DNA from: Argopecten irradians
Lineage: Eukaryota > Mollusca > Bivalvia > Pectinida > Pectinidae
Direction: 5' to 3'
Length of the DNA stretch: 64,000 nt
NCBI RefSeq assembly: GCF_041381155.1
Contig: NC_091145.1
Location: 39,261,882 to 39,325,881, forward strand
The number at the start of each line of letters is the position of its first letter. The first letter of the stretch is position 1. This document shows, one piece after another, positions 28,806-58,778 of this stretch. The notes beneath the pieces were generated by a model. The model did no database searches and had not been told where the DNA came from. It saw only the letters and a program-made list of their open reading frames with translations. The position numbers and the translations under genes are program-made.

Positions 28806-29743
28806 ACATGTACTGTGATATATTTTACTACACCTTGGTACTTTATATTGGTGCTATGTTACAATGATACAATGATACATTGATGTTATACATTGGTGAT
28901 GGTATGTATAGAATAGTTTTTTGTGGGGAATGTTGTAACTTTTTATGCAGAATTAAATGAAAATGAAATTTAATAATACGAGAGATATAAACATATACGC
29001 TGAAGCTGTAACCAAAAATGTTTCTTTGACAGGACAGTAGAACAGATCATTAATTGCGTTGATGTCTGATGTCAAAATGATGTACTAAGCCATAATCTAT
29101 CAAGACTATATTACCACAAGACAAGCACGTCCAGCATTCTCCAAGGCATCCGTCTTTGTTCCAGTAAAAGCGGTTTTTAACAAAGAATAGATTATCACTT
29201 CGCAATTGCATAAATCTGTTCTTCCAATGGGACTATTTCATGTATCATGTGATACCTGATAACGTTTGTGCGGGATTATTATTGGTATTGGTGATGAAAT
29301 GACGTTAAAAGATAATAAACCGCTAACGTTATTTCAGAGTTACGTTCCATCCCCAGTGGAGATACTAGTCCCGCAGAAACGTTATCGTGTATCACGTGGT
29401 ACGTACAGTTGTAGATCAGTTCTATAGTGCTTAAGGCCCAGTGGTATTAAACATATATTCTGCTTCACCTTAGAACAAAAACTTGACAAATGGTCCAGTC
29501 ACCCATTCAGACCTATCAAGAGTTATTTCCCTTCGATGAAACAAATTAAGAGAAGTAACGTAAATCTGACATATAAGAAAATTCACCGATACCATGGCAA
29601 TGGACACAAATTTAACCCAGAAAACATTCTGCCACACACATACATTTGGTAACTTGGTATAAGGTTCAGTGGCAATGACCAAGTATCACAAAACATGCTG
29701 AGATAATTGAAGATACTCTGTATTTCCACATCTCAAATCTGAA
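28806..29743. other. 3' flank of the Schlafen gene
   Basis: This lies downstream of the Schlafen stop codon on the minus strand and probably contains its 3' untranslated region. I do not see an unambiguous AATAAA on the minus strand in the first 500 bases. The left part (28,806-28,910) is a decayed tail of the minisatellite. Confidence 0.5.
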
Positions 29744-30635: not shown

Positions 30636-33600
30636 CTAAAAAAAAAAAATATGAAAACAAAATGTTAACTATTCTTCGTATGAAATACAATATGTGACAT
30701 TTTCAAAATTTAGGATAAATTAAGCTTAATATAGAATAAATTAAGCTTAATTTAGGATAAATAAGCATAATTTAGGATAACTTAAGCTTAATTTAAGATA
30801 AATTTCCGTTAAAACTCATTAAGATGACCTGATATACAGTACCTATTTTGAGAACAACTGAGTTTTCATATGAAATGTATTTAAAGCGTATACTACCTTA
30901 GCTAGCATGACTATATATATATCGCATTTATTCCCTCGAAAGTCTCAACACCATGAATAACAAAATTTGAATACCTCGAAAGTCTCAACAATGTCAATAG
31001 CAAAATTCCATTCCCTCGAAAGTTTCAACAATGTGAAAGCAAAAGTTCATTCCCTCGAAAGTTGAATAACAAAATTTCATTCCCTCGAAAGTCTCAACAA
31101 TGTGAATAACAAAATTCCATTCCCTCGAAAGTTTCAACAATGTGAAAGCAAAAGTCCATTCCCTCGAAAGTCTCAACAATGTGAATAGCAAAATTCCATT
31201 CTCGAAAGTTGAATAACAAATTTTCATTCCCTCGAAAGTCTCAACAATGTAAATAACAAAATCTCATTCCCTCGAAAGTCTCAACAATGTGAATAACAAA
31301 ATTCCCCATTCCCTCGAAAGTCTCAACAATGTGAATAGCACGTCGGACGCCGCGGTATCCCATAAGCTCATCTCGGTCATTCGGACCAACAATGTGAATA
31401 ATAAAATTCCATTCTGTCAAAAGTCTCAACAATGTGATTTCCATTCTCTAGAAATTAGCTGTTGATTGCCTAAACTCATAATGAATTATTGTGCAAGATG
31501 TTCATTTGTTACATGAAAACCTGAAAGTGAAACCACAAATGTAAAGGCCTCAAAATTTAAAAATAAAATCTTACCTTACTTGACAGCAACTTGAAGCATG
31601 CTGAGTAAGAAATAGGATTTGATCGGCTGCAGCTCCTTTACTGACCAGTTTACGGACAAGTTGTTGTGCAATGACAGTCTTTCCAGACCCAGGAAATCCT
31701 ATAATGCAACACAATTCCGTCAGTCGTTCATGACATATAAATCTAAAACAAAATCTGCTTGTTGAACTACGTTGAGAAATGATCATGGTATTTATACATT
31801 TTAGACAGGATATGGATCAAAGAAGTTATTTCAACGTTTATATTCCTGATAACACTGGATCCATACAAACGAAAGTCTTTATGATATGAATTACATATAG
31901 AAATAGATATGGGCCATAGACATAAATTATTATTAATTCCAACACTATGGACAAAAATAGTGCCGATTTTTATCAAGGCATTACGCCCCGCAATCAAAAA
32001 TCAATACACACAATGCCAACATTCGTCATATGATAAAGATTAAACAAGAGAAAATACTAGAGGACAAAGGACACAAAAGACATTGTGATAATATTGAAAA
32101 ACACAATAAATCCTTCGGCGATCGGAGGCCCACGGTGGAATCTAGACAGGATAGCCACATATCAAAAATGAATTGAAGACCTACTGTACAACCATTACAT
32201 ATTTAAAACAACAGAGGAAGTAAACAAAGATGAGTAGCCTTTCAATAGTTGATAACAAGTATCTTACCCATGTAGCCCTTGTAGTTCAATTTCATATCAA
32301 TAAGTTTGTTGTTTATTTTTAAATTATTTAATTAATGTAATTGATGATATTTAACAAATATAGCAGTGTCACTTTGGAGTATCGAGATGCTCCACCGCCG
32401 ACAGAGCATAACAATGTGTATCATTTCCTAATTCACATCTTCACAGACTTTTACTAAAATACGGATTAGAAAATACTGTTTCTGAACCTACTAGGATTAC
32501 TTCGTCTTCTTCAAAATCATTAGATGTAATTATCACTAATAATACTAATTTAACGACTAATACCACTGTACATACTCCATCCTGCAGCGATCACTCTCCT
32601 ATAAGTTCCGATATAAATTTTAAATCATTTAAAAAACATGCATACAAAAAGACTCTCTTATACTTTAATAATGCAGACTATGATGGGGCAAATGAATATC
32701 TTCTATTGATTGGGCTGTCGAACTACAAGGAAGTATTGATAATATGAATTCTATTTTAACTGATAAAATCCTAGCAGCTATTGACCTATTTGTACCTCAT
32801 AAAACAGTAACTATCAGACCCAATGATAAAATTTGGATGACAAATGATATACGAGTAATGATACGTAGAAGAAATCGTCAACATTCTAAAGCCAAATTAT
32901 ATAACACTCCTGCCTCATGGAACAAATTTAGAACCATTCGGAATCAGGTTATTTCTTCAATCCGTGATGCAAAAGAAAAATATCTATCTAAACTTCAGTC
33001 CTCTTTAATTGATAAATCTATACCGCCTGGTAAATGGTGGCGAATAGCGAAGTCAGTTATGAATCTTAATAACAAAAATGAAACCGACGCTCCTCTGATT
33101 ATTAATGGTGATCTAAAACTACATCCTATCGACAAAGCTGAATCATTCAATGAATATTTTACATCTATATCTGTTTCTAATAAGAATGTTGACGATTTAC
33201 CTCCTGACAGTCCTCAGCCACAGCATACATTTTCAACTTTCGACATTACAGAACAAGACATAATTGATCAACTTCATCTTCTCAACACCAATAAACCTTC
33301 AGGCCCTGATACTATTCCTCCACAATTCATAAAGGGTGTCTCTCGATCAGTCAATTATAAAACCTCTTCATGTAATATTTAATAATTCTATATCATCTGG
33401 TATGCTTCCTGATGTATGGAAAAATGCCAATGTTACACCCATATATAAAGGTAAAGGTTTACGAAGTGATCCATCTAATTATATACCTATTTCTGTGACT
33501 CCTATTTTTAGCAAAATTTTGGAAAAAATTGTGTTTAAAAATCTTTTTAACTACCTTTCCAGATATAACATAATCTCCAAACATCAATCAGGATTTTTAC

Positions 33601-36600
33601 CTAAAGATTCAACAACCTATCAACTATTAGCTATATATGACACAATTGTAAAACATTTGGATAATGGCAAAGAAGCGAGAATGATATTTTGTGATATAAG
33701 CAAAGCTTTTGATCGTGTCTGGCATGATGGTTTAATATATAAGCTTAAAAAATATGGAATCGAAGGTAATATGTTGACATGGTTTTCATCTTATTTGAAG
33801 AATAGGAGACAGAGAGTGGTCTTTGATGGATTCAAATCTACTTTTAAATCCATACAGGCGGGGGTACCACAGGGATCTGTCCTGGGACCATATCTCTTTC
33901 TATTGTATATTAATGATATTGGTGATGATATTTCTTCTAATGTTAAATTGTTTGCTGACGATACTTCCTTAATAAGTCTCATTGAAGGAAATAGACAGGA
34001 ATCTGCCGAAATTCTTAATAATGATATGAGAAAAATATCTTTGTGGGCTGAAAAATGGGGTATACTTTTTAATCCAGATAAAACTGTATCTCTTCTTTTC
34101 TCAAGGCGAGTTGACTCCCAAAAATTAATTCCTGATTTATTTTTCAACAATACAAAAATTAATAATGTTACCAATCATAAGCACTTAGGGGTATATTTCA
34201 ATTCAATGGCAAATTGGTCTACCCATATAAATTATATATATGAGAAGGCATACAAAAGAATAAACATACTCAGATAACTGAAATTCAAACTTGATAGAAA
34301 ATCACTTCAAACTATTTATACTTCCTTTATTCGACCCATTCTCGAGTATTCTAATATAGTATGGTCTAATTGCAACCAATCTGAGTGTGATATTTTGGAG
34401 TCAATTCAGCTTGAAGCAGCACGCATTATAACTGGTGTAAGAAGGGGAACAAGTCACGCTATAATTTATAAAGAATCTGGCCTATTACCACTTAAGTATT
34501 AAACGAAGACATCTACATCGAAATATAACTTTTTTCAATATATTTAATAACAATTGCCCTTCTCATATTTATGAATTATTACAGCCCTCTTTAAATATTA
34601 GTGATAATTACAATTTCCGACATAACAGATTATTTAATGTTCCTGCAGCTAGAACCCAGTTATATAAAAACAGCTTTTTCCCGTCTATTATGACGGAGTG
34701 GAACGAACCGTCCTGTCCATTTCCTACAATGTCATCTGTTAGATCCATCAAAAATTTTACAGTAAAAACATATATCTTTGATAATAGAGCTCAATGTTCC
34801 GATATTTTCAAATATAATGGTGATCGTATGTCAAATATTTTATTATGTCAGTTGAGAAATTTTGCTAGTAACCTTAATACGGATCTCTTTAATTCCCATC
34901 TCAGTGACAGTCCACCCTGCCTGTGTGGATTTCAAAACGAAGATCGTGAACACTATTTTCTATACTGTCCTTTATACGTCAACCCTAGACGGCTCCTTTT
35001 TAACTCTATCTTGGAACTTGACAATGATATACCACTGACAACACAAACATTTTTGCAAGGCTCTGAAATACACGATATAAACATTAACAAAGCTATATTG
35101 GATAAAGTTCAGTGCTTTGTCAGAGATACCAATAGATTTCGCTGATTTTGTTGAATAGATTTCGTTGAATTCGTTGAATATCTTGTAAAATCATTTTTTT
35201 CTATTTGTAATGATATGAAGTAGGAGACATTTTGTATATGATGTTTATCAATATCTAGCTTGATGTTTTAGGAAATTGTCATCATTAAATAAATATAGCA
35301 ATTAAGATTATTTATGTATATATCAATATTAATTTGTATCTACTGTTAATATGTAAGGAGAGGGCGTGTATAGGCATGTTGCCTGTTGCCCCATTCCAAT
35401 TGTATGTAACATCTGACAATAAAATATTCTGAAATGAAATGTGTATCATTTGGATGATAATTTTGTGTGTGTAAACAGATGTCTAACTAACACAAAAATA
35501 CATATAAAATAATTCGTTTTGCTTAAATTGTTGTTTGTGCTATCAGTACCTCATTACATATAGGGCATAGTGATATGGATTTTTTCGGGATGCAATCACA
35601 TATTTTAAAGTATATTGAAGTACATAATATGTAAAATAAAAAACTAAAAATTTTCAAAGATAGTAATAGATTAAAGTCAGTAACTTTTGTTACTGAAAAA
35701 AATACTAATTTATCGGGACAATAGCATCTAACTGTATAAAAAAAACCTCGTAAGCTATCAAATCAATATATAGGGTCTGCTGCGTACCTTTTATCAACAA
35801 ACAAGGACTTCTGTAAAAGCCATCCCAGATCAGGCCAAACTGCTGTTGCGTTGCGATATTAAGTAACTTTGTTCCTATCCGGTTGTGCAGTGGAGATGGA
35901 AATACACTGGCCATGATTGTCAGACATCTCAAAAGCATATACAACTTGGCCTGGTTCATCTGAACAAGAAGGTTGGTATGTCTTGCCCTACTGGCGATAA
36001 TTCCGTCAATCTGTTGCTGTATAGATCTGGAACAGTTTACAACCCCAAACAGAATTGTAACAAACGGTTGACAGTGTTTAGACAGGTTGATCTTGATGAG
36101 TCTTGCCATTTCTCTGTTGTATTTCTGTACTGGTGACATTTGTTCATCATGTACATTTACAAGCGAGATGAAAATTGGCATTTGTCTCTCGGTGAGTACA
36201 AGGAAATCAGAGATCAGTCCTGGACAGCAATTTACACACTTGGACTTTTCTCTCAGAATACTGGCAAAGTTTTCTAGGATAGCCACACCCTCATCTCCAG
36301 CGAAAACTCTCTGTAGTGTATCTGTGAAGCCCTTCATTGAATCCCCATACTGCTTGTTCAGGTTGTCCAGCAATGCTTCAGGTGTGAAACGGAGACCTTT
36401 CTTAGCTGCAACAGAGACAAAACATTTTGGTTTTCGACAAAGCTACATCCAGTTTGTGGGCAATATAGAATGGTATATTAGAAACCAGGTTCGGGGATTA
36501 ATAAACATAAAAACAGCTGTTATAGATAATAACAGCCAGAACTTTACTATCCGACGACAGCAGTGCTGATCCTAAAGTAATATGTCACTATATATTGAAA

Positions 36601-39600
36601 CTTTAGAAAGTAAGCTTTGTCATTTTACATCCATTAAATCACTTCTTTGTTAAGTTTGTTACATATAAGAATAGTGAAAAATTATTTTGCTTTGTTATTG
36701 CTATTCAGTAAGTACGATAACCTCTTATCCGGATTCCTTGTATTATGGCGTAATTGAATGGCAATTAATACCTGGATATTCCGTAAACCTAGTTCCAGTG
36801 ACATCCGGTGTAAACAAGTAACGCTGTACAAAACGTATAAACTTACTCTTGAAGATAGTCTGTTGGATCTCCTCTGCACTACCTGGTACCTCATACACTT
36901 GTTCAGGACCGCGGATTTTCAATTGCTGAAATTTTTCTGTAAGGCTGAGGTTGTCCTTACTCCAGTTCTCGCCTGAAAAATAAATAGCGGTTAAGTTCTA
37001 ATGACATTAAATGGATCATTAACAAAAAGTGACAAATTGAACATCAACATGAACAGCATTTTACTATAAGAGGCCCATGGGTCTTCACACACCTCAGATC
37101 ATTACATACACAATACAAAGTAGGTTACTGATAAAACCAAATCCATTTTCAAGACATTATAGATAATTTGAAGTTTTCAGTCTCACTGCGCATTAGTGAA
37201 TGTCGTTTCAAGTCATTGTAATGACAATATAGATCAAGTTCACCATTAAAAAGGGGGATGTACAACACTGTATGCTGCTGTCAGACAGTTTCCATGTTAA
37301 AAGATTTCTAAGATATTAAACAACCTACACAGTTTCACTAAACTCAATAAATATCTACTCAACTTATAGTGTTCAAAAGACCGATTAGTATTAATTATTG
37401 CAAAGAACAATAACTCCTAAATAACTGTATGATGGTTATTATTTCCGAACATGTCCGAATTCGTACTAATAATAGCTAAGCCGTATACAAAGTTTTGTAA
37501 AGCTCAATAAATATTTACTTTTATTTATGGGCAATAGCTCTGTTAGTTACTTTAGAATAAGTCTGATTTTCAAACTCGTCAGAAATCTTTTCTGACATCA
37601 GTCTGCATCCAAATTTTCCTCAAAGGGAGAAGGAAAATATGGCATAAATTATTCTTCTACATGCCATACGATTCTTCTAAATAGTGATAAATCCCACGAC
37701 ATTATCAAATATTTTAATTGATACAATTGGAATTCCACATCATATAGCTATAAGATTAAGCATGATAGAAAGTAATCATGGAGACAAATACATGTGGGAT
37801 TATTATATTAACCATGGTATCCTTGTTACGTATATATTAACCTTGGTATCCCTGTTACATATACACTAACCTTGGTATCCCTGTTACGTATACACTAACC
37901 TTGGTATCCCTGTTACGTATACACTAACCTTGGTATCCTTGTTACGTATACACTAACCTTGGTATCCCTGTTACGTATACACTAACCTTGGTGTCCCTGT
38001 CACGTATACACTAACCTTGGTATCCCTGTTACATATACACTAACCTTGGTATCCCTGTTACGTATACACTAACCTTGGTATCCCTGTTACGTATACACTA
38101 ACCTTGGTACCTGTTTGGTATACACTAACCTTGTATTACGTATACACTAACCTTGGTATCCCTGTTACGTATACACTAACCTTGGTATCCCTGTTACGTA
38201 TACACTAACCTTGGTATCCCTGTTACGTATACACTAACCTTGGTATCCCTGTTACGTATACACTAACCTTGGTATCCCTGTTACGTATACACTAACCTTG
38301 GTATCCTTGTTACGTATACACTAACCTTGGTATCCCTTGTTACGTATACACTAACCTTGGTATCCCTGTTACGTATACACTAACCTTGGTATCCCTGTTA
38401 CGTATACACTAACCTTGGTATCCCTGTACGTATACACTAACCTTGGTATCCCTGTTACGTATACACTAACTGTATCTGTACGTATACACTAACCTGGTAT
38501 CCTGTCGTATACACTAACCTTGGTATCCCTGTTACGTATACACTAACCTTGGTATCCCTGTTACGTATACACTAACCTTGGTATCCCTGTTACGTATACA
38601 CTAACCTTGGTATCCCTGTTACGTATACACTAACCTTGGTATCCCTGTTACGTATACACTAACCTTGGTATCCCTGTTACGTATACACTAACCTTGGTAT
38701 CCCTGTTACGTATACACTAACCTTGGTATCCCTGTTACGTATACACTAACCTTGGTATCCCTGTTACGTATACACTAACCTTGGTATCCCTGTTACGTAT
38801 ACACTAACCTTGGTATCCCTGTTACGTATACACTAACCTTGGTATCCCTGTTACGTATACACTAACCTTGGTATCCCTGTTACGTATACACTAACCTTGG
38901 TATCCCTGTTACGTATACACTAACCTTGGTATCCCTGTTACGTATACACTAACCTTGGTATCCTTGTTACGTATACACTAACCTTGGTATCCCTGTTACG
39001 TATACACTAACCTTGGTATCCCTGTTACGTATACACTAACCTTGGTATCCCTGTTACGTATACACTAACCTTGGTATCCCTGTTACGTATACACTAACCT
39101 TGGTATCCCTGTTACGTATACACTAACCTTGGTATCCCTGTTACGTATACACTAACCTTGGTATCCCTGTTACGTATACACTAACCTTGGTATCCCTGTT
39201 ACGTATACACTAACCTTGGTATCCCTGTTACGTATACACTAACCTTGGTATCCTTGTTACGTATACACTAACCTTGGTATCCCTGTTACGTATACACTAA
39301 CCTTGGTATCCTTGTTACGTATACACTAACCTTGGTATCCTGTACGTATACATACCTTGGTATCTGTTACGTATACACTAACCTTGGTATCCCTGTTACG
39401 TATACACTAACCTTGGTATCCTTGTTACGTATACACTAACCTTGGTATCCCTGTTACGTATACACTAACCTTGGTATCCTTGTTACGTATACACTAACCT
39501 TGGTATCCTTGTTACGTATACACTAACCTTGGTATCCCTGTTACGTATACACTAACCTTGGTATCCCTGTTACGTATACACTAACCTTGGTATCCCTGTT

Positions 39601-42600
39601 ACGTATACACTAACCTTGGTATCCTTGTTACGTATACACTAACCTTGGTATCCCTGTTACGTATACACTAACCTTGGTATCCCTGTTACGTATACACTAA
39701 CCTTGGTATCCCTGTTACGTATACACTAACCTTGGTATCCTTGTTACGTATACACTAACCTTGGTATCCCTTGTTACGTATACACTAACCTTGGTATCCC
39801 TGTTACGTATACACTAACCTTGGTATCCTTGTTACGTATACACTAACCTTGGTATCCCTGTTACGTATACACTAACCTTGGTATCCCTGTTACGTATACA
39901 CTAACCTTGGTATCCCTGTTACGTATACACTAACCTTGGTATCCCTGTTACGTATACACTAACCTTGGTATCCCTGTTACGTATACACTAACCTTGGTAT
40001 CCCTGTTACGTATACACTAACCTTGGTATCCCTGTTACGTATACACTAACCTTGGTATCCCTGACACGTATACACTAACCTTGGTATCCCTGTTACGTAT
40101 ACACTAACCTTGGTATCCCTGTTACGTATACACTAACCTTGGTATCCCTGTTACGTATACACTAACCTTGGTATCCCTGTTACGTATACACTAACCTTGG
40201 TATCCCTGTTACGTATACACTAACCTTGGTATCCCTGTTACGTATACACTAACCTTGGTATCCCTGTTACGTATACACTAACCTTGGTATCCTTGTTACG
40301 TATACACTAACCTTGGTATCCCTGTTACGTATACACTAACCTTGGTATCCCTGTTACGTATACACTAACCTTGGTATCCCTGTTACGTATACACTAACCT
40401 TGGTATCCCTGTTACGTATACACTAACCTTGGTTGGTATCCCTGTTACGTATACACTAACCTTGGTATCCCTGTTACGTATACACTAACCTTGGTATCCC
40501 TGTTACGTATACACTAACCTTGGTATCCTTGTTACGTATACACTAACCTTGGTATCCCTGTTACGTATACACTAACCTTGGTATCCCTGTTACGTATACA
40601 CTAACCTTGGTATCCCTGTTACGTATACACTAACCTTGGTATCCCTGTTACGTATACACTAACCTTGGTATCCCTGTTACGTATACACTAACCTTGGTAT
40701 CCCTGTTACGTATACACTAACCTTGGTATCCCTGTTACGTATACACTAACCTTGGTATCCCTGTTACGTATACACTAACCTTGGTATCCCTGTTACGTAT
40801 ACACTAACCTTGGTATCCCTGTTACGTATACACTAACCTTGGTATCCCTGTTACGTATACACTAACCTTGGTATCCCTGTTACGTATACACTAACCTTGG
40901 TATCCCTGTTACGTATACACTAACCTTGGTATCCCTGTTACGTATACACTAACCTTGGTATCCCTGTTACGTATACACTAACCTTGGTATCCTTGTTACG
41001 TATACACTAACCTTGGTATCCCTGTTACGTATACACTAACCTTGGTATCCTTGTTACGTATACACTAACCTTGGTATCCCTGTTACGTATACACTAACCT
41101 TGGTATCCCTGTTACGTATACACTAACCTTGGTATCCTTGTTACGTATACACTAACCTTGGTATCCCTGTTACGTATACACTAACCTTGGTATCCCTGTT
41201 ACGTATACACTAACCTTGGTATCCCTGTTACGTATACACTAACCTTGGTATCCCTGTTACGTATACACTAACCTTGGTATCCCTGTTACGTATACACTAA
41301 CCTTGGTATCCTTGTTACGTATACACTAACCTTGGTATCCTGTTACGTATACACTAACCTTGGTATCCCTGTTACGTATACACTAACCTTGGTATCCCTG
41401 TTACTTACGTATACACTAACCTTGGTATCCCTGTTACGTATACACTAACCTTGGTATCTTGTTACGTATACACTAACCTTGGTATCCCTGTTACGTATAC
41501 ACTAACCTTGGTATCCCTGTTACGTATACACTAACCTTGGTATCCTTGTTACGTATACACTAACCTTGGTATCCCTGTTACGTATACACTAACCTTGGTA
41601 TTTCCTGTTACGTATACACTAACCTTGGTATCCCTGTTACGTATACACTAACCTTGGTATCCCTGTTACGTATACACTAACCTTGGTATCCCTGTTACGT
41701 ATACACTAACCTTGGTATCCCTGTTACGTATACACTAACCTTGGTATCCCTGTTACGTATACACTAACCTTGGTATCCCTGTTACGTATACACTAACCTT
41801 GGTATCCCTGTTACGTATACACTAACCTTGGTATCCCTGTATACTGTATACACTAACCTTGGTATCCCTGTTACGTATACACTAACCTTGGTATCCCTGT
41901 TACGTATACACTAACCTTGGTATCCCTGTTACGTATACACTAACCTTGGTATCCCTGTTACGTATACACTAACCTTGGTATCCCTGTTACGTATACACTA
42001 ACCTTGGTATCCCTGTTACGTATACACTAACCTTGGTATCCCTGTTAGTTACGTATATACACTAACCTTGGTATCCCTGTTACGTATACACTAACCTTGG
42101 TATCCCTGTTACGTATACACTAACCTTGGTATCCCTGTTACGTATACACTAACCTTGGTATCCCTGTTACGTATACACTAACCTTGGTATCCCTGTTACG
42201 TATACACTAACCTTGGTATCCCTGTTACGTATACACTAACCTTGGTATCCTTGTTACGTATACACTAACCTTGGTATCCCTGTTACGTATACACTAACCT
42301 TGGTATCCCTGTTACGTATACACTAACCTTGGTATCCCTGTTACGTATACACTAACCTTGGTATCCCTGTTACGTATACACTAACCTTGGTATCCCTGTT
42401 ACGTATACACTAACCTTGGTATCCCTGTTACGTATACACTAACCTTGGTATCCCTGTTACGTATACACTAACCTTGGTATCCCTGTTACGTATACACTAA
42501 CCTTGGTATCCCTGTTACGTATACACTAACCTTGGTATCCCTGTTACGTATACACTAACCTTGGTATCCCTGTTACGTATACACTAACCTTGGTATCCCT

Positions 42601-45600
42601 GTAGTATCACACCTGTATCTGTTACGTATACACTAACCTTGGTATCCCTGTTACGTATACACTAACCTTGGTATCCCTTGTTACGTATACACTAACCTTG
42701 GTATCCCTGTTACGTATACACTAACCTTGGTATCCTTGTTACGTATACACTAACCTTGGTATCCCTGTTACGTATACACTAACCTTGGTATCCTTGTTAC
42801 GTATACACTAACCTTGGTATCCTTGTTACGTATACACTAACCTTGGTATCCCTGTTACGTATACACTAACCTTGGTATCCCTGTTACGTATACACTAACC
42901 TTGGTATCCCTGTTACGTATACACTAACCTTGGTATCCCTGTTACGTATACACTAACCTTGGTATCCCTGTTACGTATACACTAACCTTGGTATCCCTGT
43001 TACGTATACACTAACCTTGGTATCCCTGTTACGTATACACTAACCTTGGTATCCCTGTTACGTATACACTAACCTTGGTATCCCTGTTACGTATACACTA
43101 ACCTTGGTATCCCTGTTACGTATACACTAACCTTGGTATCCCTGTTACGTATACACTAACCTTGGTATCCCTGTTACGTATACACTAACCTTGGTATCCC
43201 TGTTACGTATACACTAACCTTGGTATCCCTGTTACGTATACACTAACCTTGGTATCCCTGTTACGTATACACTAACCTTGGTATCCCTGTTACGTATACA
43301 CTAACCTTGGTATCCCTGTTACGTATACACTAACCTTGGTATCCCTGTTACGTATACACTAACCTTGGTATCCCTGTTACGTATACACTAACCTTGGTAT
43401 CCCTGTTACGTATACACTAACCTTGGTATCCCTGTTACGTATACACTAACCTTGGTATCCCTGTTACGTATACACTAACCTTGGTATCCCTGTTACGTAT
43501 ACACTAACCTTGGTATCCCTGTTACGTATACACTAACCTTGGTATCCCTGTTACGTATACACTAACCTTGGTATCCCTGTTACGTATACACTAACCTTGG
43601 TATCCCTGTTACGTATACACTAACCTTGGTATCCCTGTTACGTATACACTAACCTTGGTATCCCTGTTACGTATACACTAACCTTGGTATCCCTGTTACG
43701 TATACACTAACCTTGGTATCCCTGTTACGTATACACTAACCTTGGTATCCCTGTTACGTATACACTAACTTTTGTATCCCTGTTACGTATACACTAACCT
43801 TGGTATCCCTGTTACGTATACACTAACCTTGGTATCCCTGTTACGTATACACTAACCTTGGTATCCCTGTTACGTATACACTAACCTTGGTATCCCTGTT
43901 ACGTATACACTAACCTTGGTATCCCTGTTACGTATACACTAACCTTGGTATCCTTGTTACGTATACACTAACCTTGGTATCCCTGTTACGTATACACTAA
44001 CCTTGGTATCCCTGTTACGTATACACTAACCTTGGTATCCCTGTTACGTATACACTAACCTTGGTATCCTTGTTACGTATACACTAACCTTGGTATCCCT
44101 GTTACGTATACACTAACCTTGGTATCCCTGTCACGTATACACTAACCTTGGTATCCCTGTTACGTATACACTAACCTTGGTATCCCTGTTACGTATACAC
44201 TAACCTTGGTATCCCTGTTACGTATACACTAACCTTGGTATCCTTGTTACGTATACACTAACCTTGGTATCCCTGTTACGTATACACTAACCTTGGTATC
44301 CCTGTTACGTATACACTAACCTTGGTATCCCTGTTACGTATACACTAACCTTGGTATCCCTGTTACGTATACACTAACCTTGGTATCCCTGTTACGTATA
44401 CACTAACCTTGGTATCCCTGTTACGTATACACTAACCTTGGTATCCCTGTTACGTATACACTAACCTTGGTATCCCTGTTACGTATACACTACTTGTACT
44501 ACGTATACACTAACCTTGGTATCCCTGTTACGTATACACTAACCTTGGTATCCTTGTTACGTATACACTAACCTTGGTATCCCTGTTACGTATACACTAA
44601 CCTTGGTATCCCTGTTACGTATACACTAACCTTGGTATCCCTGTTACGTATACACTAACCTTGGTATCCCTGTTACGTATACACTAACCTTGGTATCCCT
44701 GTTACGTATACACTAACCTTGGTATCCCTTGTTACGTATACACTAACCTTGGTATCCCTGTTACGTATACACTAACCTTGGTATCCCTGTTACGTATACA
44801 CTAACCTTGGTATCCCTGTTACGTATACACTAACCTGTTGTATACTGGTATCCTGTCACGTATACACTAACCTTGGTATCCCTGTTACGTATACACTAAC
44901 CTTGGTATCCCTGTTACGTATACACTAACCTTGGTATCCCTGTTACGTATACACTAACCTTGGTATCCCTGTTACGTATACACTAACCTTGGTATCCCTG
45001 TTACGTATACACTAACCTTGGTATCCCTGTTACGTATACACTAACCTTGGTATCCTTGTTACGTATACACTAACCTTGGTATCCCTGTCACGTATACACT
45101 AACCTTGGTATCCCTGTTACGTATACACTAACCTTGGTATCCCTGTTACGTATACACTAACCTTGGTATCCCTGTTACGTATACACTAACCTTGGTATCC
45201 CTGTTACGTATACACTAACCTTGGTATCCCTGTTACGTATACACTAACCTTGGTATCCCTGTTACGTATACACTAACCTTGGTATCCCTGTTACGTATAC
45301 ACTAACCTTGGTATCCCTGTTACGTATACACTAACCTTGGTATCCCTGTTACGTATACACTAACCTTGGTATCCCTGTTACGTATACACTAACCTTGGTA
45401 TCCCTGTTACGTATACACTAACCTTGGTATCCCTGTTACGTATACACTAACCTTGGTATCCTTGTTACGTATACACTAACCTTGGTATCCTTGTTACGTA
45501 TACACTAACCTTGGTATCCTTGTTACGTATACACTAACCTTGGTATCCTTGTTACGTATACACTAACCTTGGTATCCCTGTTACGTATACACTAACCTTG

Positions 45601-48600
45601 GTATCCCTGTTACGTATACACTAACCTTGGTATCCCTTGTTACGTATACACTAACCTTGGTATCCCTGTTACGTATACACTAACCTTGGTATCCCTGTTA
45701 CTTATACACTAACCTTGGTATCCCTGTTACGTATACACTAACCTTGGTATCCCTGTTACGTATACACTAACCTTGGTATCCTTGTTACGTATACACTAAC
45801 CTTGGTATCCCTGTTACGTATACACTAACCTTGGTATCCTTGTTACGTATACACTAACCTTGGTATCCCTGTTACGTATACACTAACCTTGGTATCCTTG
45901 TTACGTATACACTAACCTTGGTATCCCTGTTACGTATACACTAACCTTGGTATCCCTGTTACGTATACACTAACCTTGGTATCCCTGTTACGTATACACT
46001 AACCTTGGTATCCCTGTTACGTATACACTAACCTTGGTATCCCTGTTACGTATACACTAACCTTGGTATCCCTGTTACGTATACACTAACCTTGGTATCC
46101 CTGTTACGTATACACTAACCTTGGTATCCTTGTTACGTATACACTAACCTTGGTATCGCTGTTACGTATACACTAACCTTGGTATCCCTGTTACGTATAC
46201 ACTAATCTTGGTATCCCTGTTACGTATACACTAACCTTGGTATCCCTGTTACGTATACACTAACCTTGGTATCCCTGTTACGTATACACTAACCTTGGTA
46301 TCCCTGTTACGTATACACTAACCTTGGTATCCTTGTTACGTATACACTAACCTTGGTATCCCTGTTACGTATACACTAACCTTGGTATCCTTGTTACGTA
46401 TACACTAACCTTGGTATCCCTGTTACGTATACACTAACCTTGGTATCCTTGTTACGTATACACTAACCTTGGTATCCCTGTTACGTATACACTAACCTTG
46501 GTATCCTTGTTACGTATACACTAACCTTGGTATCCTTGTTACGTATACACTAACCTTGGTATCCCTGTTACGTATACACTAACCTTGGTATCCTTGTTAC
46601 GTATACACTAACCTTGGTATCTGTTACGTATACACTAACCTTGGTATCCCTGTTTACGTATACACTAACCTTGGTATCCCTGTTACGTATACACTAACCT
46701 TGGTATCCCTGTTACGTATACACTAACCTTGGTATCCTTGTTACGTATACACTAACCTTGGTATCCTTGTTACGTATACACTAACCTTGGTATCCTTGTT
46801 ACGTATACACTAACCTTGGTATCTTGTTACGTATACACTAACCTTGGTATCCTGTTACGTATACACTAACCTTGGTATCTGTACGTCATAACTTGTTCCT
46901 GTTACGTATACACTAACCTTGGTATCCTTGTTACGTATACACTAACCTTGGTATCCTTGTTACGTATACACTAACCTTGGTATCTTGTTACGTATACACT
47001 AACCTTGGTATCCTTGTTACGTATACACTAACCTTGGTATCCTTGTTACGTATACACTAACCTTGGTATCCTTGTTACGTATACACTAACCTTGGTATCC
47101 CTGTTACGTATACACTAACCTTGGTATCCCTGTTACGTATACACTACTTGGTACTGTACGTAACACTAACCTTGGTATCCCTGTTACGTATACACTAACC
47201 TTGGTATCCCTGTTACGTATACACTAACCTTGGTATCCCTGTTACGTATACACTAACCTTGGTATCCCTGTTACGTATACACTAACCTTGGTTCCTGTGT
47301 TACATAACTGTATCCTGTTACGTATACACTAACCTTGGTATCCCTGTTACGTATACACTAACCTTGGTATCCCTGTTACGTATACACTAACCTTGGTATC
47401 CCTGTTACGTATACACTAACCTTGGTATCCCTGTTACGTATACACTAACCTTGGTATCCCTTGTTACGTATACACTAACCTTGGTATCCCTGTTACGTAT
47501 ACACTAACCTTGGTATCCCTGTTACGTATACACTAACCTTGGTATCCTGTTACGTATACACTAACCTTGGTATCCCTGTTACGTATACACTAACCTTGGT
47601 ATCCTTGTTACGTATACACTAACCTTGGTATCCCTTGTTACGTATACACTAACCTTGGTATCCCTGTTACGTATACACTAACCTTGGTATCCCTGTTACG
47701 TATACACTAACCTTGGTATCCCTGTTACGTATACACTAACCTTGGTATCCCTGTTACGTATACACTAACCTTGGTATCCCTTGTTACGTATACACTAACC
47801 TTGGTATCCCTGTTACGTATACACTAACCTTGGTATCCTGTTACGTATACACTAACCTTGGTATCCCTGTTACGTATACACTAACCTTGGTATCCCTGTT
47901 ACGTATACACTAACCTTGGTATCCTTGTTACGTATACACTAACCTTGGTATCCCTGTTACGTATACACTAACCTTGGTATCCCTGTTACGTATACACTAA
48001 CCTTGGTATCCCTGTTACGTATACACTAACCTTGGTATCCCTTGGTATCCCTGTTACGTATACACTAACCTTGGTATCCCTGTTACGTATACACTAACCT
48101 TGGTATCCCTGTTAGGTATACACTAACCTTGGTATCCTTGTTACGTATACACTAACCTTGGTATCCCTGTCACGTATACACTGACTTTGGTATCCCTGTT
48201 ATGTATACACTAACCTTGGTATCCCTGTTACGTATACACTAACCTTGGTATCCTTGTTACGTATACACTAACCTGAGTTTCCTTGTTACGTATACACAAA
48301 CATTGGTATCCCTGTTACGTCAACAATCGACCATAACCGCTGGTCGAAATTCAACAAAATTTGACTGGTAGCATCCTTATGGGCTTCTAACTGAAAATTG
48401 TACAAACGATGGGGCTGACCTCTTGGGGGCCAGAGGGGCGGGGCCAAAAGGAGTCAATTTGACTACTTCCATATAAACGACTTCTTCTCTGAAATTAAGC
48501 ATGGGATAGCACCAATAATGCAATGGTAGCATCCTTATAGGGTGGGGATTCAAAATTGTACAAATTATAGGGCTGACACCCTTGGGGCCTGAAGGTCGGG

Positions 48601-51250
48601 ATCAAAAGAGATCATTTTGGCTATTTCCATATAAACGACTTCTTCTCTGAAACTATGTATTGGATAGCACTCATAATGCAATTGTAGTATCCTTATAGGG
48701 TGGGGATTCAAAATTGTACAAATGATGGAGCTGACCACTGGGGGCCTGAGGGGCGGGGTCAAACGGGCTCAAAAGGGGTCAATTTGGCTATTTCCATATA
48801 AATGACTTCTTCTCTGAAACTAAGCATAGGATAGCACCCATATTTATTATGATAATGCAATGGTAACAACCTTTTAGGGTGGGGATTCAAAATTGTAAAA
48901 ATGATAGGGCTAACCCTTGGGGCAATAGGCGCGGGCCAAAAAGGTTAATTAGGCAACTATTTTCATATAAATTGCTTCCTCTCTGAAACTATGTATTTGA
49001 TAGCATATTCGTATCTATAGCATTATTATATGGTTGGGATTCACAATCACCCTAAACAAATCGTGGGGTCAATTTGTCTTTGTGATTTTTGAATCACTAA
49101 TTACTAAATACAGAATTACTCAAAAAAATAATCAGGTGAGCGATACAGGCCGTCTGGGCCCCTTGTTACGTATACACTAACTTTGGTATCCTTTCATCAT
49201 TATCGGTATCCACTCTTCTGTAGTATACTCTTTCTTCTCTCCTTCAGCGTCAAGATATGGAGGTTTGGGGTCTGAAGAAAACACACATCCATGGAACTTG
49301 GCTACAGAAACTTCCACTACTTTTTTGGTAGTGGAAGTGTCCACTACTTTTCTGGTAGTGGAAGTGTCAGGTTCAATGTTATGAAAACGTACATCATAGT
49401 AACGACGTATTTCATCAGGTTTGGCCTGTTCTCCATTATGTCGTATCCATAACATCATATTGCAGATTTCAAACTTGATTTTCTCTCTAATTCTTTTTTC
49501 TACATCTATATCACACAAAATTCCACAAACAACTGGTGTTTTTGTTACACTTGGTGATTCTTTGTTTCGGTTTGAAGATTTATTCTTTCTTTCTAAAATT
49601 CCAAAATATATGCTTCCTCCATTTTCATTCTGAGAAAATGCTGAAAAGTATTCTCTGATATCTTTACAAATCGTACTGATGAGTTTCTCTCCTGTCTTTG
49701 TATAGGCCTTTAACTGGACATTAGTGTCTTCATGTAGATGGACACATTCTTTTCCAAGTCGTAATTCTCCATACGTCTCGTCACAGTGTACATGTTTCAC
49801 ACTTGGTTCGTACTTCTCTGGTTTTGTTATCAACAGACGTCGTTTGATTTCATCAGTCCTCACTTCCTTAATATTATGCCCTGTTGCAGTAAAAACCTTG
49901 GACTTTTGCGGAAACGTAAGCTGTCGGCCATCCTTGATGTAATAGATTAACCACTTTCCCTGACCGTTCCACCATTTTGCTTGATACCAACTCTCGAAAT
50001 CTCCCATTTCTCCTTGCTGCATGGCCATAAGTTGCAGTTCACCCTCTACCATTTGATAAAAGCGATCTTTATACAGAGGATCATTGCTTTTATCGAGTCC
50101 ACCATAATTCTGATTTTCTATGATAATGACACCACCTCCTGAATTCCTCAGTTTAACCACATTAGAGAAAAAATCTGTGACTTTGGATTCTTCCTTTTCT
50201 TTTTCATCCTGATCAATGTCTTTGTTTTGGATTGGGAATTTCATCCTTAATACATTATCTGCAAACATGTCATCTGTTGGATCCTCTGGTGCGCTTGTGA
50301 CGTCAGCTGTGACGTCAGACATTGCCTCCGAATACTCATCGTCACTTGAGTCCTGTGGAACCTGTGAGCTGTCACTTGAGTCATGTGGGACTTGTGAGCT
50401 GTCACTTGAGTCCTGTGGGACCTGTAAGCTGTCACTTGAGTCCTGTGGGACATGTGAGCTGTACAAGGTGTCCACGCCTTCACTATCAGAACCTCTATCT
50501 TGTGTACTTAAATGGATTCTTTTCTTCGCCAACGGTTCTGAAGATACAAACAATGAGTAAAAAGAATTACATCGAACAATTCTTGAAAACAATGTGGAAC
50601 AAGAACAATTAAACAATTTTTCTCTATCAAAAACAGTAGTAGACGAATAAGTATTTTTCTTCTGTTACAAAAGTAACTTACTTTACACCATCACCACCAT
50701 TCAAAAGTTTGAGCTTCTAATTTTACTTTAAGACAGAAATATTAAAAATAAATATTTGCATCCCGAAAATATTCTGTGGCACAATGTCTCATATGGAATG
50801 AAGTGCTGACTGCGCATTTACCAAAGCCAAAATAAATTCTTTCATATTATTTTTTGTGTTAATTAGACATATATATACACGATTAAACACCAATTATTGT
50901 TCAAATGGTTGGTATCGTTTTATGCTAGGAAAATAAAACAAGTGGACTACTAACTCAGAGTCTTTATTCTGTAAAATTCTCATCAACCAAATGACAACGC
51001 ACCGTAACCCGGCCATAAATTTGGTCGACATTTACGGAGTGGACAAAGCTTGAATTGACTCGACGGAAGAACAAAAGTTTCCGCTCGATGACATAATTTC
51101 ATCGGCACTTTAAATTTGCGACGCCGCGGAATTTAAAGAAACATTAAAATCAGACATTCCGTGATAAAAAAGGATCCGTCAAAGAAAAAACTTACGCTCA
51201 AAATGTTGTGGCTTTTCCCTCTTGGTGCCTTTCAAATGTCTATTATCCAT
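29744..51250 (-). CDS. Schlafen family protein with SF1-type helicase domain (six coding exons)
   Basis: This is the complete gene as I join it: 51196-51250, 49182-50537, 36847-36972, 35788-36405, 31575-31698 and 29744-30635. The total is 3,171 nt, 1,056 residues. All introns are GT-AG, and phases 1,1,1,1,2 agree at every junction. Residues 1-135 are acidic and probably disordered, with an early basic PLAKKR stretch. The Schlafen core spans about 137-470 and includes KLRNSGGGVIIIEN and a second module around YFSAFSQNENGGSIYFGI. A linker covers about 472-718. The helicase region runs from Walker A GFPGSGKT (719-726) and Walker B VDDAQ (about 795-799) to RRYSGLDRPVVLAVNP (about 1008-1023) and LYLMIATRPIAKLEV. 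Long vertebrate Schlafens act on tRNA or rRNA, stalled replication and virus restriction; any such role here is an inference. Confidence 0.85.
30940..31442. repeat. 40-bp minisatellite in Schlafen intron 5
   Basis: About 12 units share CCATTCCCTCGAAAGTCTC and AACAATGTGAATAACAAAA, some with shortened spacers. A GC-rich stretch of about 48 bp (31,341-31,388, containing CGTCGGACGCCGCGGTATCC) interrupts the array and matches nothing else in the window. The minus-strand frames at 30,994-31,227 and 31,241-31,444 are repeat artefacts. Confidence 0.85.
31575..31698 (-). CDS. Schlafen exon 5 (Walker A)
   Basis: A 124-nt exon: acceptor TTGCATTATAG, donor AAG/GTAAGA. It completes the glycine codon split by intron 4. 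It encodes FPGSGKTVIAQQLVRKL and ADQILFLTQHASSCCQ, residues 720-760. The nucleotide-binding lysine and threonine are intact. The FLTQHASS stretch corresponds to the first strand after the P-loop helix. Confidence 0.85.
31699..32384. other. Schlafen intron 4, repeat-like but unassigned
   Basis: Non-coding. GGAATCTAGACAGGATAGCC and nearby strings look like dispersed-repeat sequence, but I cannot assign it. The minus frame at 31,767-31,997 has no support. Confidence 0.45.
32430..32640 (+). pseudogene. LINE endonuclease, C-terminal end only
   Basis: Translation gives ENTVSEPTRITSSSSKSLDV and HTPSCSDHSPISSDI. The SDH triplet is the conserved last catalytic block of the exonuclease/endonuclease/phosphatase-type LINE endonuclease. 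Everything upstream was lost through 5' truncation. The frame then shifts before the next readable block at 32,744. Confidence 0.75.
32744..34277 (+). pseudogene. LINE reverse transcriptase with a frameshift near 33,340
   Basis: The first frame (32,744-33,382) contains KWWRIAKSVMNL and ends its useful part at NTNKPSGPDTIPPQFIK. The reading then shifts to the frame at 33,336-34,277 (IIKPLHVIFNNSISSGMLPD, ANVTPIYKGKG). Conserved blocks are FCDISKAFDRVWHDGL (first catalytic Asp), AGVPQGSVLGPYLFLLYIND, and LFADDTSLI with the catalytic FADD. All catalytic residues are present, so decay is slight. The minus frame at 33,791-34,174 is a shadow. Confidence 0.9.
34278..35145 (+). pseudogene. LINE ORF2 C-terminal region with Cys/His motif
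   Basis: After the stop at 34,275-34,277 the same product continues as YTSFIRPILEYSNIVWSNC and LEAARIITGVRRGTSHAI. A further stop occurs at about 34,500, then an open block at 34,690-35,145. That block contains CLCGFQNEDREHYFLYCPLY, a C-x-C...H...C arrangement found at the end of many LINE ORF2 proteins. TGA ends the frame, and a 3' untranslated region of about 290 bp follows. Confidence 0.8.
35788..36405 (-). CDS. Schlafen exon 4 (linker to helicase)
   Basis: The acceptor is GTCTCTGTTGCAG and the donor is AAAG/GTACGC. The exon codes for residues 513-719 and begins KKGLRFTPEALLDNLNKQYG. The middle is mostly helical, with several cysteines (KCVNCCPG). The end, FGLIWDGFYRSPCLLIKG, leads directly into Walker A, the arrangement expected upstream of the helicase in long Schlafens. 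The open frame continues past the donor for 28 codons, but the tail resembles the neighbouring MITE and not a protein. Confidence 0.85.
36406..36846. other. Schlafen intron 3
   Basis: A 441-bp intron between strong GTAAGT and TTGCAG sites. No repeat recognised. Confidence 0.7.
36847..36972 (-). CDS. Schlafen exon 3 (linker)
   Basis: A 126-nt exon lies between the acceptor TTATTTTTCAG and the donor AAGA/GTAAGT, both strong. It encodes ENWSKDNLSLTEKFQQLKI and YEVPGSAEEIQQTIFK, residues 471-513, with no stop in the chosen frame. The phase agrees on both sides. It is too short to stand out as an open frame, and I found it by looking for a phase-1 exon between exons 2 and 4. Confidence 0.75.
36973..37807. 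other. 3' part of Schlafen intron 2, non-repetitive
   Basis: AT-rich unique sequence between the acceptor of exon 3 and the end of the 29-bp array. Nothing else recognised. Confidence 0.6.
37808..48322 (-). repeat. 29-bp minisatellite, about 360 copies, in Schlafen intron 2
   Basis: About 10.5 kb of tandem units. On the plus strand each unit contains GTATACACTAACCTTGGTA and TCCCTGTTACG. On the minus strand it reads GGATACCAAG, GTTAGTGTATACGTAACA. Most copies are identical. The common variant has TCCTTG in place of TCCCTG. Irregular copies (about 38,460-38,510, 39,340-39,370, 42,598-42,615, 44,490, 46,875-46,900, 47,150 and 47,290) look like indel clusters and may be sequencing or assembly errors. 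The unit matches the exon 2/intron 2 boundary of the host gene, so the array probably grew from it. Copy number is estimated from span divided by 29. Confidence 0.97.
48323..49160. mobile_element. dispersed repeat inserted in the 29-bp array
   Basis: Four or five sub-units of about 165 bp share TCCATATAAACGACTTCTTC, GGATAGCACC, GGGTGGGGATTCAAAATTGT and GGGGCGGGGTCAAA. The right end is GGTGAGCGATACAGGCC followed by GTCTGGGCCCC, which I associate with an abundant bivalve repeat. It lies between CTGTTACGT on the left and CCTTGTTACGTATACACTAA on the right, both parts of the 29-bp unit. It therefore landed inside the array. The minus frame at 48,565-48,762 is repeat sequence. Confidence 0.75.
49161..49191 (-). 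repeat. founder-like copy of the 29-bp unit at the exon 2 boundary
   Basis: CCTTGTTACGTATACACTAA followed by CTTTGGTATCC is one further unit, separated from the main array by the 838-bp insertion. About 10-11 of its bases are coding exon 2 sequence and the rest is intron. Beyond GGTATCC the sequence changes to exon-specific TTTCATCATTATCGG, so this is where the repeat unit stops. Confidence 0.85.
49177..49186 (-). promoter_or_regulatory. 5' splice site of Schlafen intron 2, inside a 29-bp repeat unit
   Basis: The junction reads GGATACCAAA/GTTAGTGTAT on the minus strand. The same sequence with G for A at the last exonic base (CAAG/GTTAGT) is repeated about 360 times downstream in the intron. 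Phase analysis (AGC, serine 471) supports use of this site, and an in-frame TAG follows immediately if it is skipped. Confidence 0.75.
49182..50537 (-). CDS. Schlafen exon 2 (acidic repeat and Schlafen core)
   Basis: The acceptor is TTTGTATCTTCAG and the exon starts in phase 1 before PLAKKRIHL. It codes for residues 19-471. It contains the ten-residue acidic repeats, then the Schlafen/AlbA-type core, and finishes with VSVAKFHGCVFSSDPKPPYL. The last is a typical end of the Schlafen N-terminal region, where many members have a KPPYL-like string. A local duplication (TSTTRKVV / TSTTKKVV) occurs at about 411-424. The donor at the 3' end is CAAA/GTTAGT. Reading past it hits TAG within four bases, so splicing here is obligatory. 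Confidence 0.85.
50335..50460 (-). repeat. 30-bp coding repeat, four copies
   Basis: Tandem 30-bp units encode SSQVPQDSSD with variants (SSHVPQDSSD, SLQVPQDSSD, SSQVPHDSSD). They form a Ser/Asp-rich acidic tract near the N-terminus. Because 30 is a multiple of three, copy-number change would not break the frame. The plus-strand frame at 50,216-50,560 is an antisense shadow. Confidence 0.85.
50615..50925 (-). mobile_element. TTAA-type MITE, copy 3, in Schlafen intron 1
   Basis: Reverse-oriented copy of the element at 3492. Landmarks are CTATCAAAAACAGTAG, GTTACAAAAGTAACTTACTT, TTTGAGCTTCTAATTT, GCATCCCGAAAATATT, CATATGGAATGAAGTGCTGA and TGTGTTAATTAGACATA. The terminal inverted repeats are eroded at both ends. 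It begins about 80 bases upstream of exon 2. Confidence 0.8.
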
Positions 51251-56684: not shown

Positions 56685-57065
56685 CTACAACAAACGATTC
56701 AGTTTCGTTTTCAGAGTTCTAATAAATTGTTTTTCTTGTTCTTTTCTTTGGATGGTATTATTATTTAACATTTTATAGAACGGAAATATAGTAAACCTTT
56801 TCTTTCCGCAAATGTCCAAATGTTCACTTAAATTTATTTTCCTGTACTCCGGTACATTAATATGTTGTTTGTGTACACGGACACGGGCCCTCAGTGTATT
56901 ACTGGTCTCTCCAATGTAAAATTCCTTACATCCGGGGCATTTTATTACATAAATAAGGTCTTTCGAATCACAGCACATATTTGCATTCACTACGAATGTT
57001 CTGGAGCGGAGTTTGAAAGATGAACCTTCTGTAATGTAGTCGCATGTTCCACATCGTGGGTCCAT
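56685..57065 (-). pseudogene. Penelope-like GIY-YIG endonuclease domain
   Basis: Contains CGTCDYITEGSSFKLRSRTF, then CDSKDLIYVIKCPGCKEFYI, then GETSNTLRARVRVHKQHI. The first Y in LIYVI and the YIGET motif form the GIY-YIG core, and the arginine follows in LRARV. Cysteine pairs upstream (CGTC, CPGC) form the zinc-finger-like motif usual in this domain. It ends normally with a TAA. The domain is complete and open. Confidence 0.85.
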
Positions 57066-57132
57066 ACATTTTCTTACGGTGAAATTTTCTTTAGTTTGGA
57101 AGTTAGATTTACCAAGGACGTATATGTCTCAC

Positions 57133-57669
57133 TTATAAATCCTTGGATTTACATAGTACTCTCCTCAGATTTTTGGGTTGGCGTTTACTATTGATGAAGG
57201 TTGTGTTTTTCAGCACTCTCTGCATATGTTCATCTTCTTGGAGTACATTGTTTAGTTGGCGTACGGTTCCGGTTATGTTTTTATTCCGTGGATTATGTGT
57301 GGTTACTAATTGTAACATTGAAGATTCTGTTTCTTGATTCTCTTTTGGACTGAGGAGCATTGTTTTGTCTAATTCTTTTGCTTTCTGGATTCCATCTTCT
57401 ATCAGTTTGGTTGGATATTTTTGAGATTTCAAATAACTGGTTAATTCTTTCAAGCGGAGGTCTCTTGTTTCACTCTCACTAACTATGGTACAAATCCTTC
57501 GAGCAAGATTATATGGGATTGCCCGTTTATTGTGTCGCGGATGGCATGATCCAAAGTGAAGATACTGGTGTGTGTCTGTTGGCTTGTAATAAATATTTGT
57601 TATTATGGTATCATCCTTTTTCAGAACCAGAACATCTAAGAACGGTATTTTTTTTGTCATCAACTTCAA
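57133..57669 (-). pseudogene. Penelope-like linker between RT and endonuclease
   Basis: Open 178-codon block: KKIPFLDVLVLKKDDTIITN, IYYKPTDTHQYLHFGSCHPR, HNKRAIPYNLARRICTIVS. The FLDV...YRKPTDT..YL..SCHP pattern is typical of Penelope-like elements immediately C-terminal to YLDD. It joins the RT after one frameshift near 57,640. Confidence 0.85.
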
Positions 57670-58778
57670 TAGTAAAACTTATACTTTGATCCAGCATATT
57701 AAGTTGATTGAACAATGTTGTCAGACGTTCTTCATCGAAGTTCCATATGATAAAGCAATCATCCAGATATCGTTTCCAGTTATTAATTAGGTACAGTTTG
57801 AAGTTTGTATCCCACATTTCTTCAGCTTTTTTGTAAAGGTTTTTTTTTCTAAATATCCAAGTGTAAGAGTCGCATACGTTGGAGCCATTTTCGTGCCCAT
57901 AGCAGTGCCTTTGATTTGTAGGTAATGTTCGTCATTGAACATAAAAGTATTGTTAGATAATACTAGTTCTGTCCCATCTAGGATAAATTGTTTTTTGAAA
58001 CGATGATGTATTTTCTCTGGGTGATTATCTAGCCAGTATTCAATTGCCTTCAGTCCCAGTTCTTTGGTGATATTTGTGTAGAGATTCACGACATCCATCG
58101 TTACAAGTTTCGAATTTTCATTGACTTCCTTCGGGAGGTGGGTAAGAAAGTCCATATCATCCCGTACATAACTATTTACTTCTTTACAGAATGGTTTAAG
58201 CAGGATATCTAGTAAGTTGCTGAGTCTCTGGGTTGGGGAATTCGGTCCACCCACAATTGGTCTTAATGTTAAATCATCAGGATTTAAACAAGTTATATAT
58301 TCTGAATTTCGTGTTTGTATTACTTCCTTAATTTGTTTTGATTTGTGAATTTTCGGTAATCCATAAAAGCAACTTTCTTTGAATTCAAAATGTGTTAGGT
58401 AATCCTGTTCATTTCCGGTTATTTACGTAGTATTCAAGTTGTTGCTGATGAGTCTTTTTATTTCTGTATTGAATATTTGTCCTGATTACCATCTACCTTG
58501 ACGTAATATTCCTCATTCAGCAGTATGCTCGTAATTTTCGTTTTATAGAATTCTCTGTCCATCACCACTATCACGCCTCCTTTATCTGCTGTTTTTATAA
58601 TTATGGTGGTGTCATTTGCTAAGGCTTTTAAGGCATTTTCTTCATCTTTCGTTAGATTGCTTCTCTGATTTGTTTGTTCATTCTTAAGAGGTACATGTAG
58701 GTTTTCCAGCGTTTCACACACGGCATCTAGTGTGTTGTTTCTGCCTTTTCTGGGGTTGAATGATGATTTATTTCTCAC
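57611..58778 (-). pseudogene. Penelope-like reverse transcriptase, frameshifted
   Basis: The upstream block LTKDEENALKALANDTTIII followed by KTADKGGVIVVMD (58,458-58,778) is characteristic of the region before the RT. In 57,787-58,254 are LVTMDVVNLYTNI, which holds the first catalytic Asp, and QIKGTAMGTKMAPTYATLTL. After a frame change comes NNWKRYLDDCFIIW (57,611-57,817) with the catalytic YLDD. All catalytic aspartates are retained. Confidence 0.85.

Follow-up and report, generated by a model that had tools for sequence, protein, structure and literature searches.

The closest described systems are the 'mirages' of amphioxus, which are minisatellite-like tandem duplications of exon-intron boundaries in the Adh, globin, troponin C and PGBD5 genes (PMC3087553, PMC3902484), those of PGBD5 and troponin C being described in PMC3902484. 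As far as the available text of these two papers goes, the genes named are Adh3, the globins BflGb6 and BflGb9, troponin C and PGBD5, and mirages consist of many repeats with AG/GT splice signals, have a homogenised interior from which the boundary units are excluded, and leave splicing regular. The sizes given there are six and three units of 150-160 bp in two haplotypes for BflGb6, units of 10-72 bp for Adh3 and units of 60 and 108 bp for PGBD5. Tandem repeats at exon-intron boundaries also alter gene structure in human segmental-duplication paralogs (PMC2812944, available text), and the gain of introns through tandem genomic duplication of exon segments bearing AGGT has been reported (PMC3443670, available text).

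The locus described here, from the scallop Argopecten irradians, resembles the mirages in several ways. Each repeat unit spans a boundary of its host gene, with 10 nt of exon end and the donor, a segment that is single in the paralog. The array lies at the authentic boundary, copy 1 being that boundary, which is now separated from the other copies by an inserted element, and the repeats carry splice signals, in the form of 348 occurrences of AAGGTTAGT. The scallop case differs in size, with ~365 units of 29 bp over 10.5 kb, and also in that the paralog is free of the array and the authentic donor is weakened. The human repeats are alike in that their units are of minisatellite size (average 30 bp) and differ between recent paralogs, but according to the available text they average 4 repeats and 160 bp and sometimes create new introns (PMC2812944), whereas the scallop has hundreds of copies in one intron. 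The AGGT type of intron gain shares the tandem duplication of an AGGT segment and the resulting extra splice signals (PMC3443670, available text); in the scallop, by contrast, the duplication lengthened an existing intron. To judge from its sequence, we regard the scallop array as a mirage, extreme in size and outside the chordate cases compared. An earlier note on this DNA, made from the letters alone, had held that no case of this kind and scale was described. This fails as to kind, because mirages and human boundary repeats have been published; as to scale it stands, in that no array of hundreds of junction copies, and none as large as this one, is found among the matches listed from the open-licence literature, as far as their available text goes. 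Our reading would extend junction minisatellites beyond amphioxus and human to a scallop, with hundreds of copies and with the array-free state kept in a sister gene 108 kb off. It also suggests one route to an intron that is 17 times as long as its counterpart (intron 2 is 12,209 nt in the host gene and 712 nt in the paralog).

The window, that is, the whole 64,000-nt stretch analysed (C12:39,261,882-39,325,881), contains the host gene on its minus strand, where exons 2, 3 and 4 and intron 2 were located. The body of exon 2 (49183..50300) is homologous to the paralog up to 50,300, encodes a Schlafen-like N-terminal region and belongs to an open reading frame at 49,177-50,664. Exon 3 (36847..36972) and exon 4 (35788..36405), both also on the minus strand, are each 92% identical to those of the paralog. 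When exons 2, 3 and 4 are joined no stop occurs across either junction, and the same is true of the paralog from the homologous part of its exon 2 onward. The start of exon 3 at 36,972 and the end of exon 2 at 49,182, with intron 2 beginning at 49,181, had been proposed in the earlier note and agree with our results. In a search of the PDB, SLFN11 (E 7e-5) and SLFN5 (E 0.0019) were matched. The Pfam family SLFN_AlbA_2 is matched by exon 2 with 17.6 bits, below the cut-off of 25.3, and two later open reading frames tested against Pfam matched no family. The only homologs found in other species are three predicted proteins, all from scallops, one from Pecten maximus and two from Ylistrum balloti, and one of the three is named schlafen family member 2-like and has PF04326. 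The host gene thus appears Schlafen-like, by its similarity to SLFN11 and SLFN5, the sub-threshold AlbA_2 match and the name of one homolog.

The junction copy, which is copy 1 of the 29-bp unit (49163..49191, minus strand), consists of the last 10 nt of exon 2 (49,191-49,182) and the first 19 nt of intron 2 (49,181-49,163), and it reads GGATACCAAA at the exon end followed by GTTAGTGTATACGTAACAA in the intron, with the donor CAAA|GTTAGT. On the exon side the unit was said to lose identity exactly where exon-specific sequence begins. This is accurate to within ~4 bases, the exon having GAAAGGATACC where the array has AACAGGGATACC or AACAAGGATACC. The proposal that all 19 intronic bases of the unit are the gene's own is not supported. 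Only ~9 of them (about GTTAGTATA) appear ancestral and the remainder would be filler, the last ~10 bases of the intronic half being missing both from the start of the paralog's intron and from the intron past the last copy. The junction copy is also not contiguous with the further copies, an ~840 bp dispersed repeat lying between ~49,164 and 48,321.

Beyond this element the 29-bp minisatellite occupies 37823..48320 on the minus strand, with about 363 copies before the last one over ~10.5 kb. Tandem Repeats Finder (TRF) reports an array at 37,809-48,320 with period 29 and 96% matches, and its 181.9 copies of a 58-bp period correspond to about 364 units. A cyclic alignment gives 366 segments including two partial edge segments, so that the figure of about 360 copies in the earlier note is borne out. 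The consensus is found unchanged in 249 of the 366 segments; 70 have substitutions only and 47 have indels, some of which may be assembly errors, the length of the array being that of one assembly. The 348 donor-like sites AAGGTTAGT were counted over 37,784-48,330. The last copy, GGATACCATGGTTAATATA (37804..37822, minus strand), runs directly on into the ancestral intron, and the remainder of intron 2 (36973..37803, minus strand), the first ~80 bp of which align with the start of the paralog's intron, has a 3' end that reads TTTTTCAG. The first three full copies differ from the consensus at 3, 4 and 0 positions and the last four at 0, 1, 3 and 10, while the interior has a mean of 0.56 and a median of 0. 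The interior of the array is homogenised and its edge copies are diverged, which is the pattern of concerted evolution by which mirages are recognised. The two main variants of the unit show no significant clustering in the array, with 9 adjacent pairs where 6.6 are expected (p 0.20).

The paralog bears on the origin of the unit. A whole-genome protein search with exon 2 found two places. One is the gene in the window; the other, at C12:39,202,461-39,203,513 and 108 kb away, is a paralog whose protein is 93% identical. The paralog's exon 2 ends with AAAGGATACCAAG and its intron starts with GTTAGTATAATGATCC, and it is free of the array. The junction AAGGATACCAAG|GTTAGTATA is present once in the paralog, at the end of exon 2, and the segment common to the unit and the paralog is AAGGATACCAAGGTTAGT(GT)ATA. 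Within 7 kb around the paralog, on the strand of the gene, no ungapped match to the unit is better than that of the paralog's own junction, with 20 of 29 positions (the runner-up has 18), and the first 16 bases of the unit match this junction unbroken across the splice site. A match of this length and position is not due to chance.

The two flanks of the array are informative in the same way. On the exon side the exon adjoins the first copy, while on the far side the sequence after the last copy GGATACCATGGTTAATATA is ATAATCCCACATG..., similar to the intron of the paralog. In comparisons of this distal flank with the paralog's intron against 2000 dinucleotide shuffles each, z was 5.4 for 30 bp (one shuffle reaching the score), 4.8 for 60 bp (none) and 5.8 for 80 bp (score 54 versus 25 +/- 5, 0/2000), and controls with the wrong intron gave z of -1.7 and -0.8. 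With simple shuffles, and with the paralog begun ~10 bases late, z was 3.8 for 60 bp, 4.3 for 100 bp and 2.4 for 200 bp. When 120 bp of the flank was compared by BLAST with a 190-kb region, no hit was listed in intron 2 of the paralog; the best one (E 3e-5, 72% over 69 bp) was elsewhere and concerned the later part of the flank. The match of the distal flank is short because the introns of the paralogs hardly align beyond their edges, even though their exons are 92-94% identical. The array therefore has on one side an exon and on the other an intron that in the paralog are directly joined, which is the signature of tandem duplication in place. This single-copy paralog and both flanks strongly support the core of the earlier note, namely that a segment straddling the 5' splice site was tandemly duplicated. 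The paralog could alternatively be a collapsed array, which would look alike, yet the unit would still be at the gene's own junction. We estimate a probability of about 0.87 that the 29-bp minisatellite arose in place from the exon 2/intron 2 junction of the host gene.

A large and homogeneous array is also what would be expected if an independent satellite had landed at the junction and supplied both the exon end and the donor. The earlier note had named abundance of the unit at unrelated loci as the finding that would speak for such an insertion, and a genome-wide search found nothing of the sort. The exact 44-bp dimer of the unit occurs 244 times in the 846-Mb genome (845.8 Mb), and 244/244 are inside the window. 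An 18-bp core with <=2 mismatches occurs at 394 + 38 places on the two strands, of which 354 + 0 are in the window, and the 78 places outside it (40 + 38) are below the 121 of a reversed-pattern control, so that copies elsewhere are not above chance. Satellite DNA dispersed over several unrelated loci is rejected on the same counts. The paralog, moreover, has the identical exon end and intron start without an array, and the exon end itself seems old. The residues GYQ at the junction are kept in the Pecten maximus protein and are followed there by sequence homologous to exons 3-4, which indicates that the exon end predates the array; they are absent at the junction in both Ylistrum balloti proteins, so that one of the three outgroup proteins keeps them. 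The insertion of a foreign satellite is thus hardly credible. An artefact of assembly affecting the length or structure of the array is only slightly easier to accept. It is suggested by the indels in 47/366 segments, some of them complex, but the element and the flanks are distinct sequences that make evolutionary sense, and the exact dimer does not occur outside the window.

Origin in place from the host junction being our preferred reading, the following history may be proposed. One tandem duplication would have copied ~20 bp across the splice site, joining an AAGG in the exon, and the join would have carried 8-10 bp of filler (TACGTAACA), giving the 29-bp unit. Unequal exchange or slippage may then have expanded the array and homogenised its interior, leaving the edge copies diverged. 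A truncated dispersed element of ~840 bp would have entered later near the first copy and cut the authentic junction off from the array, and the -1 base of the authentic junction would have become A. A search of 190 kb for the source of the filler TACGTAACA gave exact 9-mer matches at three places, each of them outside the window, no match for the four 10-mers tried, and no convincing source.

The element (48321..49164, minus strand) is a 3'-truncated dispersed repeat with internal units of ~158 bp, and there is an overlap of a few bases between its ends and the array unit. One 27-bp motif, close to the distal end of the element, is present at 1492 places in the genome (752 + 740, with <=3 mismatches and the window copy included), while the reversed control gave 0. 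Six relatives were fetched, of which one could not be judged for the end motif; the exact motif is found in the other five, all of which extend past the point at which the window copy stops. We therefore consider the window copy truncated. Array sequence is found on both sides of the element. The element begins AACAAGRGG, which overlaps the AACAAGG of the array, so that the element may have been involved in the first duplication. In such a variant the element would have been inserted first, immediately beyond the donor. The first duplication would then have used the AAGG of the element and that of the exon as short direct repeats, and AACAA would be element sequence. The two AAGG motifs in copy 1, that of the exon and that of the element start, are exactly 29 bp apart, and AAC precedes AAGAGGCCC in 7 of the 10 other element copies with a visible start (5/8 + 2/2), these seven reading AACAAGAGGCCC. 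This order would also explain part of the filler. It would need a further rearrangement, however, as the array is found past the element and ends in a copy that passes straight into the ancestral intron, and array sequence that flanks the element on both sides is as would be found with insertion into an existing array. We consider the variant unlikely, and the order of filler, then array, then element is probably the correct one. The case for a clean 8-bp target-site duplication, ACGTAACA, of the element is weakened, as a start after AAC is shared by most other copies seen and the family extends beyond ACG. Further copies of the element are found at C12:39203975, 39206064 and 39238464 and at other places, often starting AACAAGAGGCCCA; at least the copy near 39,238,464 is followed by repeats spaced about 157 bp.

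The authentic donor differs from the sites in the array. It reads CAAA|GTTAGT, that is, AAA|GTTAGT, where the paralog and the 348 array sites have AAG|GTTAGT (CAAG|GTTAGT in the array), so that the -1 base, A in the authentic donor, is G in the paralog and almost throughout the array. The donor consensus is CAG|GTAAGT, and this consensus and the end of U1 were used for scoring. The authentic donor matches the consensus at 6 of 9 positions and the type found in the array and the paralog at 7 of 9, and the calculated duplex energies with the U1 end are -1.2 and -6.2 kcal/mol, respectively. By these scores the authentic donor looks weaker than the 348 copies in the array. Translation running past exon 2 yields KGYQS and then TAG immediately after the codon that spans the junction.

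In the pre-mRNA the authentic donor, which is weak, would thus be followed by 348 copies that look stronger. If the first donor were spliced to exon 3 the full protein would result. Since the stop is immediate, the use of any decoy, or retention of the intron, would end after the junction-spanning codon and give one and the same truncated protein, ending KGYQS. As splicing would mostly take the exon-proximal site, the array would be tolerated. Exons 3 and 4, which lie beyond the array, are open, and between the paralogs they are more conserved at the protein level than at the silent level. For exons 3-4 dN is 0.050 and dS 0.149, a result that would fit a gene still spliced across the array, although the paralog's own constraint contributes to it; for exon 2 dN is 0.036 and dS 0.065. 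Amino-acid changes polarised with the three outgroup proteins are split between both lineages and have no consistent pattern. That the expansion did not destroy the host gene, as the earlier note held, would be consistent with its open downstream exons.

It may be asked whether the array is kept for a function, either in controlling how much full-length Schlafen-like protein is made relative to the truncated form or in binding U1 snRNP along a long intron. In the former case transcripts would be partitioned between the full-length and one truncated protein according to the length of the array, and in the latter they would bind much U1 snRNP. Such a role would be in keeping with the presence of 348 donor-like sites of greater apparent strength than the authentic donor, and with the prediction of the same truncated protein from every wrong choice. 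Nevertheless the paralog, whose intron has 712 nt and lacks the array, keeps an open frame, and amphioxus mirages are reported, in the available text, not to disturb splicing (PMC3087553, PMC3902484). A role of the array in shaping the output of the gene is therefore improbable, and most likely the array is mutational in origin and has no selected role of its own. If such a role did exist, the splicing of a possible immune gene would be regulated by the length of the array. The locus also lends itself to testing how the spliceosome selects one of hundreds of near-identical 5' splice sites when the authentic one looks weaker.

Several other features of the window and its neighbourhood were observed. 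Exons 2-4 of the two paralogs (window 49183-50300, 36847-36972 and 35788-36405, versus C12:39200042-39203600) are 92-94% identical, while introns 2 and 3 barely align past their edges. This contrast would be explained either by homogenisation of exons only (gene conversion, perhaps templated by cDNA) or by very fast intron turnover. Exon 2 has two tandem duplications of its own that are absent from the paralog's translation, one of a 30-bp unit in about 4 copies at 50341-50462, coding for SSDSSQVPQD-like repeats, and one of a 27-bp unit in about 2 copies at 49313-49368; together with the 29-bp array, the tandem duplications of this exon that were not observed in the paralog number three. Beyond exon 4, a reverse transcriptase open reading frame (Pfam RVT_1, E 7.6e-31) lies on the opposite strand, at 32696-35145 (plus strand). 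A GIY-YIG open reading frame (E 5.7e-8) lies at 56685-58982 (minus strand) beside further open reading frames, of which one neighbour was tested and matched no Pfam family; the region has the appearance of a Penelope-like element. Other large tandem arrays are found in the window at 6525-8154, 18665-22084, 25416-28897 and 63150-63999, with periods of 57, 39/223, 29-119 and 145 bp, and arrays similar to those of 223 bp and 145 bp are present within 100 kb to the left of the window.
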